Shown: one piece after another, positions 11,391 through 18,050 of the stretch | Layout: every line of letters begins with the position of its first letter | Numbering within the stretch: the first letter of the stretch is position 1 | Virus record (IMG/VR): IMGVR_UViG_3300008266_002194 | Coordinates: 1-23,246 of that record | Reading direction: 5' to 3' (one strand) | Length of the DNA: 23,246 nucleotides | From: a virus | Notes under the pieces: model-generated | Databases searched by the model: none | Told to the model about the DNA's origin: nothing | Seen by the model: only the letters and a program-made list of their open reading frames with translations | Made by a program: the position numbers and the translations under genes

Positions 11391-11558
11391 GTTTCCTCCA
11401 CGGAGCCAGACATGCACCCGACAGACTTTCGTGCAAGGGGTTCTATCTTCGCCGCCCCTGTTCCTCTTCCCGCACTTCCCCACAGTAGGAACTCTTGATG
11501 GTTACGCTGCCGTTGGTTTACCCCGACCATAACCACGCAATCATTGCTGATGTGATGG

Positions 11559-12421: not shown

Positions 12422-13054
12422 ATGGATGGGCAAAAGAGTCCCCATGTCCTAGTAGGCATCAAGCAAGTGATGCAGGCGTTTGCTGATAAGGGCATCGCCA
12501 AGTCCCACAAGAACGAATCCCAAGGCTTTAAGTTCCGTGGCATCGACGATGTGATGAACCGCATGGCTCAGCATCTCGTCGAGGCCGGTCTTGTCATTGT
12601 CCCGAATATCAGGAGTCGTGAAGTTTATGAGCGTGTTAATAGTCGAGGCAATCCCCTCTTCTATGTGACCGTTCAAGTGGACTTCACCGTGTGGTCTGCC
12701 GTCGATGGCAGCAGCGTCGTGTGCTCAGTGCCGGGCGAAGCGATGGACTCCGGCGACAAGGCAACCAACAAAGCGCTGTCGATCTCCTACAAGTACATGG
12801 CGTTCCAGCTCTTCGCCATCCCGATTGATGAGGATCCTGACCGCCACACCCATGAGGTCGGCAAGTCACCCGGCAAGACGCTGGCTCCTAGCGACATCGA
12901 CATCATTCGCAAGCTGCTGGTTGAGACTGACGTGACTGAGGAGAAGCTGCACGAGATCTACAAGGTGACCGGCCTTGAGCAGATCCCGATGAGCAAGATG
13001 GCTGAGATCACTTCCAACCTGCAAAAGCGCATCAAGCAGAAGGAGGAGGCGTGA
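12422..13054 (+). CDS. ERF-family single-strand annealing protein
   Basis: This encodes 210 residues from ATG 12422, with GGAGGG upstream. FKFRGIDDVMNRM (36-48) and GEAMDSGDKATNKALSIS (105-122) followed by YKYMAFQLFAIP (123-134) are the signatures of the ERF family (P22 Erf). The C-terminal 60 residues are a separate helical segment ending in a Lys/Glu-rich tail. ERF proteins anneal complementary single strands for recombination and genome circularisation. It usually works with an exonuclease; the partner gene here (14423-15188) appears broken. The stop overlaps the next GTG start. Confidence 0.85.
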   Translation: MDGQKSPHVLVGIKQVMQAFADKGIAKSHKNESQGFKFRGIDDVMNRMAQHLVEAGLVIVPNIRSREVYERVNSRGNPLFYVTVQVDFTVWSAVDGSSVVCSVPGEAMDSGDKATNKALSISYKYMAFQLFAIPIDEDPDRHTHEVGKSPGKTLAPSDIDIIRKLLVETDVTEEKLHEIYKVTGLEQIPMSKMAEITSNLQKRIKQKEEA

Positions 13055-13278
13055 TCCCGGAATCGCTCTTAGATGCACCGATCCATATCGGGGATGAGTT
13101 GACGGAAGCCGAGGTGTTCGTGCTCGATGCTTTTGACTCGCTGATTGAAGAGATGAAGGAAGCTCGCAAGAACGCCCTCGAATACAACGGCGAGGAGTTC
13201 GCAAGGATGTTCGCAGTAGCAATCACCAATTTACAAACCGCAAAGATGTGGGCGCGTGAAGCCTACGAAACCATGTGA
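13051..13278 (+). CDS. Small helical protein, possible Acb2-like anti-CBASS
   Basis: This encodes 75 residues from a GTG overlapping the ERF stop by four bases (GTGA). It is predicted to be two long helices. The C terminus AITNLQTAKMWAREAYETM resembles the ending of phage Acb2/Tad1-type hairpin proteins, where a segment like LEEAxMWANAAIAR follows an acidic helix. Acb2 proteins bind cyclic oligonucleotides and block CBASS immunity. The match is by pattern memory only, and the N-terminal part is not obviously conserved. The alternative is a generic small helical phage protein. Confidence 0.45.
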   Translation: MIPESLLDAPIHIGDELTEAEVFVLDAFDSLIEEMKEARKNALEYNGEEFARMFAVAITNLQTAKMWAREAYETM

Positions 13279-13287
13279 GGAGAAGGA

Positions 13288-13548
13288 ATGAAGCAATACA
13301 ACAACATCTCAGTATTCAAAGCAAAGCCAAGCCAGAACGCGAAGGCTCCGCAGTTCAACGTCGTCATAGAGATGGCGGACGGAACCAAGTGGCGCGGCGG
13401 TCTGTGGGAAGCAACATCCAAGGCTGGCACGAAGTACCTGCGCGGCTCACTCGATGAGGACACCGGCAACGGTGATCAGCCACGCACATCAAAGCGCAAC
13501 GACGACCCACCCTTTGAGCCAAGCAATAACAGTTTGGTTGACTGGTGA
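13288..13548 (+). CDS. DUF736-like small protein
   Basis: This encodes 86 residues from ATG 13288, with AGGAGAAGG upstream. NISVFKAKPSQNAKAPQF, then GTKWRGGLWEATSKAGTKYL and RGSLD, resembles the DUF736 group: a beta-rich domain of 50-60 residues with a W/G...TSKxGxxYLxxxLD core. An acidic/polar tail (ending NNSLVDW) follows, reminiscent of single-strand-binding protein tails. It sits between ERF and the large RNA block. A DNA-binding role in recombination is plausible. It is complete, so the RNA block does not interrupt it. Confidence 0.55.
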   Translation: MKQYNNISVFKAKPSQNAKAPQFNVVIEMADGTKWRGGLWEATSKAGTKYLRGSLDEDTGNGDQPRTSKRNDDPPFEPSNNSLVDW

Positions 13549-13556
13549 GATCGCTG

Positions 13557-13679
13557 GCCTCGGGGGTCATAGGTATTGCAGATGCTCCCGCCGACCCGAG
13601 GCGTATTACAGAGGCGGGGAAAGACTCCTTTCCCTCGGGCAACCGGGGTTTTGAACCCATAACGTCAGGGCAATCTGCA
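13557..13679 (+). ncRNA. 5' domain of the large RNA, long-range pseudoknot
   Basis: GCCTCGGG (13557-13564) pairs perfectly with CCCGAGGC (13595-13602). Within its 30-nt loop, TGCAGAT (13577-13583) is complementary to ATCTGCA (13673-13679), and CCCGCC (13587-13592) to GGCGGG (13613-13618). Both would be pseudoknots with the first helix. The second competes with the 7-bp hairpin 13617-13623/13628-13634. GGGTT/AACCC (13646-13650/13654-13658) adds a further, competing hairpin. Confidence 0.5.
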
Positions 13680-13701
13680 TCGGCGTGACAGCTGGAGAGA
13701 C

Positions 13702-13791
13702 AGCATCAACACGCATGAGGATTGGTTACAAGCGAAGATAAAGATCGGTTCGCTGGTTGATGCTTTGCGCCAGTCCTCAGTCGTGTTGGTG
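13702..13791 (+). repeat. RNA domain copy 1 (short insert)
   Basis: The 5' end (13707-13723, CAACACGCATGAGGATT) and 3' end (13772-13791) are identical to those of copy 2 and pair with each other. CATCAACACG pairs with CGTGTTGGTG (one U-G), then a CA/GT internal loop, then a 10-bp helix TGAGGATTGG/CCAGTCCTCA. The 48-nt insert forms AGCGAA/TTCGCT (13731-13736/13749-13754). The 5' strand has a rival partner: AGCATCAAC (13702-13710) is perfectly complementary to GTTGATGCT (13756-13764), so two folds exclude each other. Confidence 0.75.
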
Positions 13792-13834
13792 ACGACCATC
13801 ATACCGGGCCGTGTGGGAAAACGGGGCATCACCA

Positions 13835-13868
13835 GATCTCAACTTGGGAGATCGGCGGCGAAACCAAG
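13835..13868 (+). ncRNA. H-type pseudoknot between the two domain copies
   Basis: GATCTC (13835-13840) pairs with GAGATC (13848-13853). Its loop bases CTTGG (13843-13847) are complementary to CCAAG (13864-13868) ten bases downstream. This is classic H-type geometry: stem 1 of 6 bp, loop 1 of 2 nt, stem 2 of 5 bp stacked directly on stem 1, and a 10-nt A/G-rich loop 3. Confidence 0.6.
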
Positions 13869-13913
13869 AGGCAGCGCGGAAAGACGCGCCGTGTTCCTGA
13901 CTGATCATCAGGG

Positions 13914-14056
13914 CCAACACGCATGAGGATTTGGGCAGGATGAGGTCGGTCAGTGGAAAGCTCTAACGTCACTTGCTGCAGCAACACGTTATCTGTCCTT
14001 CATCCCGGCGCTCTGTACGGATCGCAACCGTAACTAAGTCCTCAGTCGTGTTGGTG
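13914..14056 (+). repeat. RNA domain copy 2 (long insert)
   Basis: The 17-nt 5' end (13915-13931) and 20-nt 3' end (14037-14056) are identical to copy 1. CCAACACG pairs with CGTGTTGG, the same CA/GT internal loop follows, then an 11-bp helix TGAGGATTTGG/CTAAGTCCTCA. Relative to copy 1, a G-C pair has become U-A (13932/14036) and a U-G pair has become C-G (13914/14054), which are compensatory changes. The 105-nt insert holds 13938-13945/13998-14005, the nested TAACGT/ACGTTA and TTGC/GCAA hairpin (13964-13991), and TACGG/CCGTA with a 7-nt loop (14016-14032). Confidence 0.75.
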
Positions 14057-14141
14057 GTGAGCGCAGCACCTTGGGCCGTAATGGGCCGAGCCAACCCGCA
14101 GCGGGGGCGGACTGCGTACCTGTACCTATCTAGGAGATTGT

Positions 14142-14426
14142 GTGGACAAACAAGAAGAGAAGATGCCCAGCAAGGTGTACATGAGCGACATGCTGGCGCG
14201 AGTGAAGAAGGCCACGTACACCCTTATGCCGGGCACCACCACTACCTTCTGCCAGCTGGAGATGGTCAACGGCTACACCGTGTGGGGCAAGAGCGCATGC
14301 GTTGATCCCAATAAATACAGCCACGCCATCGGTGAGAAGTATGCCTTCGAAGATGCGGTCAATCAGCTGTGGCCGCTGGAGGGATACCTCTTGGCAGAGC
14401 GTCGTCATCAAGCAGGACTGGTATGA
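14142..14426 (+). CDS. N4 gp49/Sf6 gp66-like phage protein
   Basis: This encodes 94 residues from a GTG at 14142 with TAGGAG upstream; ATG 14163 is an alternative start. SKVYMSDMLARVKKATYTL, then TFCQLEMVNGYTVWGKSACV and YSHAIGEKYAFEDAVNQLWP with LEGYLL near the end match the Phage_gp49_66 family, whose members are about 90-100 residues. Function is not established; the genes sit in early or recombination regions of many tailed phages. The stop overlaps the next start (ATGA). Confidence 0.8.
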   Translation: MDKQEEKMPSKVYMSDMLARVKKATYTLMPGTTTTFCQLEMVNGYTVWGKSACVDPNKYSHAIGEKYAFEDAVNQLWPLEGYLLAERRHQAGLV

Positions 14427-15188
14427 ATCTCACCAACATCCACGATCTACCTCAGGCGCTGGTCGATGCGGTAAGGAATGATCCTTACACGGGCGGCGGC
14501 GACATCTCCGTCACCAAGCTGATTGACTCGGCGCACCGTCGCGTCCTGCTCAAGAGAGCGTCTGTACTCTGACGTAGAGGGTTGGTCTTTGTCCGGTCAG
14601 TTCGATCGCATGGATTTGCGTAACGAGACATTAGACGACTACAAGTGCACGAGTGTGTACAAGGTGATGATGTCTGACATGAAGGAGTGGGAGCGCCAAC
14701 TCAATGTGCTGCGTTGGTTGGCAATCCAGAACGGTTACAAGGTGGAGCGCCTTAGGATCATTGCAATCCTTAGGGATTGGCGCAAGTCTGATGCAAAGCG
14801 TAAGCAAGACTATCCACAAAAACCGGTAGCCACCATTGATATTCCGGTGTGGCCGCTTGACGAGACATATCAGTACATTAGAGATCGTATTAGCTTACAT
14901 CAGGAAGCAGAAGCAGGTGGCACACATATTGTCTGTACTGATGAGGAGCGGTGGTATGCGGGTACCACTTACGCACTGATGAAGCCGGGAGGCAAGCGAG
15001 CAATCAAGATATTCGAAAGGAAGGAAGATGCTGAATCCGCACTCACTGACAGCACAGTTATTGAAGAGAGACGCGGAGGCTACAGACGATGCGAAGAGTA
15101 CTGCGAGGTATCCGAGTTCTGCGAACAGTACCAGTCTAGCAGGGAAATCTCTGCTCCTACCCTCTGGGAAAGTTGTGAGGGTAGTTGA
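14423..15188 (+). pseudogene. Broken RecB/Cas4-like PD-(D/E)XK exonuclease
   Basis: The N-terminal part (14423-14572) reads MNLTNIHDLPQALVDAVRND, then ISVTKLIDSAHRRVLLKR and a stop: the usual opening of phage RecB-like nucleases. The remainder resumes in another frame from about 14550: RERLYSDVEGWSLSGQFDRM, then DDYKCTSVYKVM (core GxFDR...DYK), IAILRDWRKSDAKRK, CTDEERWYAG, and the Cys-rich end CEEYCEVSEFC. Family members have roughly 35-50 residues between these parts, including a G-x-x-V/A-H-x-x-L-E motif. That segment is absent, so an out-of-frame internal deletion is inferred. The gene is the expected partner of ERF. A truncated product from 14523 would keep the D/DYK motifs but lack the His motif. 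Confidence 0.7.
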
Positions 15189-17974: not shown

Positions 17975-18050
17975 TGGTGCCGCTGGTCCGACTCGAACGG
18001 ACGACCTGACGCTTACGAAGCGCCTGCTCTACCAGCTGAGCTACAGCGGC
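17975..18050 (-). tRNA. tRNA-Thr(CGU) with encoded CCA
   Basis: On the minus strand the sequence folds into a full cloverleaf. The acceptor is GCCGCTG/CAGCGGC (7 bp), with a D arm GCTC/GAGC. The anticodon arm is GGCGC-TTCGTAA-GCGTC with anticodon CGU for Thr ACG codons. The variable loop is 5 nt and the T arm is GTCCG-TTCGAGT-CGGAC. The discriminator A and CCA are encoded (17978-17975). It begins exactly after the integrase stop. tRNA-Thr(CGU) genes are classic integration targets (P22 uses thrW), but here phage-type genes lie on both sides. It may be a phage-borne tRNA or an att copy spanning the whole gene. Confidence 0.93.

Follow-up and report, generated by a model that had tools for sequence, protein, structure and literature searches.

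The window, meaning the whole stretch of DNA analysed here, comes from IMG/VR, where it forms a virus record 23,246 bases long. At 13549-14141 it holds a non-coding stretch that fills the slot between a gene for an 86-aa DUF736-like protein (13288..13548, +; Pfam PF05284, E 6.8e-5) and a gene for a Phage_gp49_66 family protein (14142..14426, +; Pfam PF13876, E 1.6e-21). The genes near this stretch encode a CI-like repressor, an ERF ssDNA-annealing protein (12422-13054), a 75-aa protein and the DUF736-like protein, followed on the far side by the Phage_gp49_66 protein and an exonuclease.

Several neighbours have features of their own. The 75-aa protein (13051-13278), encoded upstream of the RNA, shows a weak likeness to the Acb2/Tad1 hairpin (Pfam E 8.7e-4, below cut-off) and also matches a chain named Vs.4 (E 0.34); it is a possible nucleotide-sponge anti-defence protein. 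Nine window proteins were compared with defence-system models, with no match. The exonuclease gene (phrog_2139, window 14427-15188) seems to be disrupted or truncated: the frame at 14523-15188 matches, over its residues 12-172, residues 101-266 of the protein in locus L155, and the apparent N-terminal part sits in another frame. Between divergent repressor and DnaB-like helicase genes, Rfam places a Betaproteobacteria-1 RNA (11416-11537, -; 88.5 bits against a gathering score of 49.4), which hints at a betaproteobacterial host.

The first-pass annotation had read 13549-14141 as a large structured RNA with no credible ORF, and both statements are borne out. Frames lying fully inside the stretch reach 52-55 aa at most, and the longer ones (66 aa on the plus strand, 98 aa on the minus, 110 aa on the plus and 93 aa on the minus) enter from the neighbours, the 110-aa plus frame being out of phase with the next gene. 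The RNA is predicted to fold better than 100 of 100 dinucleotide shuffles (z -3.61). Its MFE structure includes a long-range helix, ATAGGTA/TACCTAT (13569-13575/14123-14129), which is altered in the related locus L109 and whose 3' partner is absent from most relatives examined. At the DNA level, the region as a whole gives only matches of 32-34 bases (E 0.7) in seven phage records, and none in plasmid records.

With E values up to 5, Rfam gives seven matches in the whole window, none of them inside 13549-14141. Neither the ROOL nor the GOLLD model is among the seven, and GOLLD is also unlisted in later Rfam scans of relatives. We find no match to the abiF RNA model (RF03085) in the window, no match to the tRNA model in 13549-14141 (the window's sole tRNA match is at 17978-18050), and no tmRNA by ARAGORN -m in the window or in any locus scanned. 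ROOL, GOLLD and every other Rfam family were rejected for this stretch for want of a match, and the suggested kinship to ROOL/GOLLD is not supported. The further suggestion of a new class gains from the search, the stretch being Rfam-negative at E 5 and its homologues strongly covarying, as judged by the counts of pairs changed on both sides given below.

The stretch begins with a 5' domain, S5 (13549..13704, +), which was aligned in the window and eight relatives at the same gene slot. S5 is conserved among these relatives, and its central helix, GCAGAU/AUCUGC (13578-13583 with 13673-13678), is nearly invariant. It also contains a CCC/GGG hairpin (13656-13658/13668-13670) and, at its 3' end, the GUGACAGCUGGAGAGACAGC element (13685-13704); the UGACA..GGARAGAC element is found at 35 distinct places in the loci examined. 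Of two pseudoknots originally proposed, one remains as a candidate in this domain, where its pairs change, and the second was not confirmed. The candidate, ACGUC/GGCGU (13662-13666/13682-13686), has some support from its putative pairing: three pairing combinations occur in six of the seven distinct sequences matched by pattern, and in the seventh (L117) two of three pairs form in the frame tested. A competing nested helix is possible (13566-13570 with 13685-13689). The reported GCAA tetraloop hairpin (CGGGCAACCGG, 13636-13646) exists, but it is kept in only three of the nine aligned sequences.

Cassettes on a conserved closing helix

Downstream of S5 lie two cassettes, A1 (13705..13790, +; insert 13724-13771 within a helix of 13705-13723 and 13772-13790 that has a CA/GU internal loop) and A2 (13913..14055, +; helix 13913-13931 with 14037-14055, insert 13932-14036). 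Both are closed by one and the same helix, CCAACACGCAUGnnnAUU...AGUnnnCAGYCGUGUUGG, which includes a 2x2 internal loop; the window's two copies are exact from CAACACG to GUGUUGG, with TC replacing CC before the first. The duplicated domain seen earlier is real, in that the perfect repeats CAACACGCATGAGGATT (13707 and 13915) and AGTCCTCAGTCGTGTTGGTG (13772 and 14037) each occur twice. However, these two repeat pairs are the two strands of the helix that closes the two tandem domains, so that the closing helix alone is repeated and the inserts are unrelated, much as the original description of tandem variable-insert domains implied.

The same helix came up in many contigs when IMG/VR was searched with the 15-mer CAACACGCATGAGGA and the ERF protein. 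Matches to the 15-mer are partly chance, and both helix strands were present in 141 of the 220 loci at that stage. Two-sided patterns, some fixing AGG/CCT and two leaving nnn free on both strands, gave at least 120 matches per scan, and counts for the family are samples. The module finder returned 438 modules, some loci being included twice, against 0 on the reversed sequence; the totals of 327, 379 and 339 used below refer to distinct sequences.

Covariation in homologues was counted at nnn. Among the matches listed in a census of 416 loci, there are 327 distinct copies, 114 of them AGG/CCT. Where nnn differs from AGG/CCT on both sides, 187 of 192 copies still pair; where it differs on one side, 18 of 21 pair as G-U, and mismatches are found in 8 of the 327. 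When the 5' strand is anything other than AGG, 196 of 203 copies are paired, compared to a mean of 80.5 and a maximum of 92 for shuffled partners. The helix positions outside the pattern behave unevenly: at positions 2-5, both-side changes retain pairing in 25/25, 28/32, 20/22 and 26/28 cases; 98 of 339 copies have mismatched G-G at position 1, and pairing at positions 6-8 barely exceeds that of shuffles, if at all.

The kinds of pairs indicate which molecule is under selection. The 1017 nnn cells of 339 copies, a count that omits L417-L434, include 51 G-U, 7 A-C and 3 other mismatches, and this large excess of G-U over A-C indicates that the selected molecule is the RNA of this strand. The same excess bears on a DNA-level reading, in which the cassettes would resemble integron attC sites, folded single-stranded DNA would be the recombination site and no RNA function would be needed. 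Swapped units flanked by repeated joints would suit that reading, but the G-U excess points to selection on one-strand RNA and the inserts covary on their own; we regard it as highly improbable.

The inserts are mostly 34 to about 110 bases long, with most below 140, are wholly different between copies yet recurrent, and show no genes. Among the matches listed, 379 distinct modules form 211 insert clusters (143 single, 68 with at least two members), numbers that vary with the clustering threshold. Exchange of whole inserts is visible in the flanks: among same-insert pairs with flanks of at least 100 nt, 333 of 428 have no similarity in either flank, and such a pair occurs in 56 of the 68 clusters. 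Structure was assessed in 19 clusters (the 21 with at least four members, minus two having fewer than three distinct sequences), where both partners have changed with pairing preserved at 69 of 294 predicted pairs, and z-scores range from -9.2 to -0.2 with a median of -2.1. The A1 insert falls into cluster 15 and recurs in L046, L052 and L169. That of A2 falls into cluster 5, which has seven distinct sequences and a z of -3.7, with both-side changes at 11 of its 27 predicted pairs. Hairpins resembling a tRNA T-arm are present in 5 of the 211 insert clusters (shuffle mean 0.02).

We also compared the slot itself, the site after the DUF736-like gene, in contigs carrying relatives of the window's ERF protein. 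L110 has S5 and the second cassette; relative to the window, it is missing a single 208-nt repeat unit as well as the 3' linker. L109 retains S5 and the 3' linker with another cassette between them, and L111 has another first cassette plus a tRNA-Tyr, sharing the linker and second cassette with the window. In L114-L116 the order is S5, tRNA-Tyr, cassette, tRNA (by eye in L114 and L115); ARAGORN identifies tRNA-Tyr and tRNA-Gly in L116. L117 and L121 have other sets of blocks, and L118 and L120 have a short gap at the slot with the RNA absent. Aligned in this way, the slots show gain, loss and replacement of units, with the repeated closing helices as the points of exchange.

Across the family, cassette number and inserts vary between phages, and the non-coding stretch around the cassettes measures between a few hundred and some 2000 bases. 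-10-like hexamers occur just upstream of the first cassette in 51 of 308 cases, at 60 nt upstream in 48 of 301 and at 400 nt upstream in 26 of 271; being nearly as frequent at 60 nt, they argue only weakly for an own promoter. Terminator-like sites are found within 150 nt after the last cassette in 31 of 311 cases, within 150 nt before the first in 22 of 294, and further out in 5 of 289 and 2 of 257.

Taken together, these comparisons, made at the level of sequence, show a closing helix, strand-specific selection on RNA, structured exchangeable inserts and, as described below, swappable linkers. By the same comparisons, 13549-14141 is one large predicted ncRNA and a two-cassette member of a widespread modular phage RNA family. 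Missing from the first-pass annotation were the exchangeable cassettes, the tRNA or tRNA-like linkers, and the antitoxin RNA motif that follows some arrays.

Linkers, tRNAs and genomic setting

Linker 1 (13788..13912, +) joins the two cassettes and comprises a GGUGA...UCACC domain (13788-13833), a hairpin at 13835-13853 and a GCGC-GGAAAGAC-GCGC hairpin (13874-13889, +). It is also found in L111, with the same second cassette and a different first one. The 3' linker L3 (14053..14134, +) has the hairpins GGUG-AGCGCAG-CACC (14056-14070) and GGCC/GGCC (14074-14077/14084-14087, +); in L109 it follows a different cassette, and a variant with a GAUG/CAUC stem occurs in L197 and L204. More generally, the chain mostly goes on with GG after each cassette. 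Linkers between two cassettes (n=65) start with GGTG in 46 cases and have CACCAAC within their last 20 bases in 26. A total of 378 linker stretches, 313 of which are merely the 110 nt following a last cassette, form 196 clusters, 142 of them single and the largest, B1, with 51 members.

The B1 linker consists of a pair of hairpins, with GNCUGA and ANAUCAGNN as the loops in the search pattern, and their loop-loop contact resembles the contact between the D and T loops of tRNA. All 43 distinct copies are complementary at the variable position of this contact (28 G-C, 8 A-T, 5 G-T, 2 C-G); the remaining contact bases are set by the search pattern.

Such contacts, together with the size, phage origin and tRNA neighbourhood shared with ROOL and GOLLD as described in PMC12286853, would fit an RNA scaffold or cage in which the common joints form multimers and the inserts serve as cargo or surface loops. 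However, Rfam matches neither ROOL nor GOLLD, and cassette number, inserts and length are all variable. We consider a scaffold or cage improbable.

tRNAs recur around and within the arrays. T-arm-like hairpins are present in 20 of the 378 linkers, some of which are perhaps real tRNAs, and real tRNAs can replace a linker: in 10 cases, a cassette begins with an A that is also the terminal A of the tRNA's CCA. A same-strand tRNA lies within 1 kb of the array at 39 of 320 loci, and tRNA density is 0.093 per kb near arrays versus 0.026 over all these loci.

Related blocks are found in the isolated phages CASP1, ST4, HK620, Bas80 and phiEt88, where neighbouring tRNAs are the sole RNA annotation. The blocks adjoin tRNA genes, except in HK620, whose block lies between Q and the lysis genes; those of Bas80 lie under hypothetical proteins on the opposite strand. 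Since the isolates have other closing helices, we treat them as relatives of the architecture, not as proven members with the exact cassette. Of 5,426 E. coli genomes, 153 have a match to the HK620 stretch, 9 of these over at least 80% of the query. With an E of 0.1, B1-like DNA occurs in 163 of 50,697 phage records, 25 of which cover more than 80% of the query. One insert, common to L109 and L282, stands alone between tRNA genes in the T4-like Aeromonas phage avDM14-QBC; it also lies between tRNA genes of Salmonella phage S5 (Schitoviridae), follows tRNA-Asn in Pseudomonas phage Astolliot and is found in 48 phage records in total. In cellular genome contigs the exact pattern is rare, with one real match in a Burkholderiales MAG (L123), among whose relatives it occurs in 2 of 299 genomes, the MAG itself counted. 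A Streptomyces match (L122) was taken as chance.

Other possible RNAs were also noted. The Aeromonas phage avDM14-QBC has more unannotated and seemingly tRNA-like or structured gaps between its tRNA genes (L425:1325-1615, 1778-2016). HK620 (L428:1733-1826), Bas80 (L429:1745-1840) and E. coli prophages (L431-L433) contain a tmRNA-like piece, which consists of a pseudoknot-like stretch (by eye) and then a short frame, ANEEMYLAVA, ANDDVVLMAA or ANDDLMLMAA, with a stop. The piece is upstream of B1 in L428, L429 and L433, and L431 and L432 have no exact B1 match. Rfam gives weak matches to permuted and beta tmRNA in L429, below gathering, and ARAGORN calls no tmRNA in L428-L430; the piece is possibly a phage trans-translation RNA. 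In L269, where a phage tRNA cluster also contains a cassette and tRNA-like pieces that repeat, there are two matches to YrlA (Y RNA-like) RNA at 341-461 and 1185-1288 (E 8e-4 and 1e-5, below gathering).

A translation-support RNA has to be weighed here, with tRNA- and tmRNA-like blocks acting in translation or ribosome rescue and inserts that tune or protect them. Real tRNAs as blocks, the tRNA-like B1 linkers, the tmRNA-like stretch and its tag-like frame in HK620, Bas80 and the prophages, and the sub-gathering YrlA-like matches in L269 all favour it. We nevertheless think it unlikely, given that ARAGORN finds no tmRNA in the loci scanned, that same-strand tRNAs lie nearby at so small a share of the loci, and that more than 200 insert clusters go far beyond the variety a translation RNA should need.

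The protein-coding surroundings vary as well. The first-pass annotation had assigned the RNA to a phage recombination operon, which holds for the window but not as a rule: with gene clusters each named from one representative, a terL or terS cluster gene lies within three genes at 121 of 320 loci, and SSB, HNH, PD-(D/E)XK or one ERF cluster is nearby at 51 of 320. The frequent terminase neighbours would agree with a cis-acting element for DNA packaging or late gene control. However, the window and its relatives sit in a recombination operon, the related HK620 stretch lies elsewhere, between Q and lysis genes, and insert diversity is unexpected for a packaging signal. We judge this reading to be quite improbable.

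The abiF motif and a possible antitoxin or decoy role

In L138 and L033, an abiF RNA (Rfam, 55.2 and 54.1 bits; gathering 37) comes directly after the array. It follows the array and is not inside a cassette stem. CCAAC followed by the abiF motif within 16 bases is found in five contigs (L033, L138, L435, L436 and L437), of which four were scanned: L033, L138 and L437 meet the gathering score, and L436, with the array-end motif only, is below it. The array of L435 is a variant. All but one of the five records are only fragments, 4-6 kb in length.

No Abi_2 protein was found in these five records or, more broadly, in any of 93 viral records with an abiF motif (the 5, plus 0 of 40 and 0 of 48), many of which are fragments; applied to 101 bacterial genomes, this search detects Abi_2 in 3. 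Two bacterial loci encoding Abi_2 were scanned and yielded no abiF RNA, so Abi_2 proteins are not always accompanied by one. Orphan abiF motifs occur at 113 or more distinct viral places, 48 of them with a tRNA within 1 kb, and the three tRNA-rich loci scanned (L441, L454 and L490) reach the gathering score. Among the matches listed, 6 of 113 places have an array motif within 500 nt, namely L033, L138, L436, L437 and two others that have a single downstream motif, maybe by chance; the variant array of L435 is uncounted. The abiF motif and the arrays are thus mostly apart. No other antitoxin family came out of Rfam scans covering 79 loci, of which 59 were run at the gathering score only. Among the blocks, abiF is alone in having a known partner.

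In C. difficile, an RNA of the abiF type acts in trans and binds its toxin directly to neutralise it, as reported in PMC12373285. By analogy with what is described there, the orphan copies in phages are plausible anti-AbiF agents.

We infer an antitoxin or decoy function for the arrays because the abiF motif follows some of them without an abiF gene and the C. difficile relative acts in trans (PMC12373285), and also because tRNA-like blocks would suit decoys of tRNA-cutting nucleases. Cassettes alternate with swappable linkers, some of them tRNAs or tRNA-like, and an insert is replaced as a whole between phages. In this model, recombination between the repeated closing helices would shuffle the units, and the array would be transcribed together with its operon, no own promoter having been found in the window. 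Each insert would bind a specific host factor, and the array would thereby block RNA-binding defence proteins as a set of RNA antitoxins or decoys. We put the chances at about even that the stretch is a recombinationally shuffled cassette RNA of this kind, probably a multi-target antitoxin or decoy array. More tentatively, and on balance with some reserve, we propose that phages have a general plug-in RNA platform, in which hundreds of recombined inserts would provide custom antitoxins or decoys against RNA-dependent host defences; with similar reserve, such a platform might be the RNA counterpart of anti-defence gene islands.

If the antitoxin or decoy model is right, there is a large phage RNA family with block relatives in model coliphages such as HK620, and the unexplained stable RNAs of phage tRNA clusters become a testable question. 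The family would offer a collection of structured inserts from nature, about 200 kinds in all, which may target host proteins, and phages would trade RNA-based counter-defences as they trade genes.

Comparison with known systems

In the titles and abstract openings of the open-licence PMC literature, with preprints outside this set, we found no description of such an RNA, and we know of no RNA family that places whole exchangeable inserts on one conserved joint. There are partial parallels. Phage tRNA clusters have interspersed small RNAs, such as RNAs C and D of T4, and the insert shared by L282 and L109 likewise stands alone among phage tRNA genes; the tRNA-cluster element has its own stem, whereas here it is plugged into the common closing helix. 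Integron cassette arrays consist of swappable units joined by folded repeats (attC). Here, in contrast, selection is on RNA pairing of one strand and no genes were seen in the inserts, the core sites having been compared by eye. RNA anti-CRISPRs (Racr) are phage RNAs that mimic a defence RNA; the idea of a phage RNA as a mimic is common to both, but our arrays have many unrelated inserts.

The AbiF toxin-antitoxin system, which is type III-like, is similar in that its abiF motif follows five of the arrays and in that a small structured RNA acts on a protein (PMC12373285). It differs in that no Abi_2 gene was found in those five records, and the window is abiF-negative. GOLLD and ROOL are, like the RNA described here, large and highly structured RNAs of phages and prophages that often lie by tRNA islands, as described in PMC12286853. 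Unlike them, the present RNA strings together short cassettes, all built on one conserved closing helix, and its inserts are exchanged whole.
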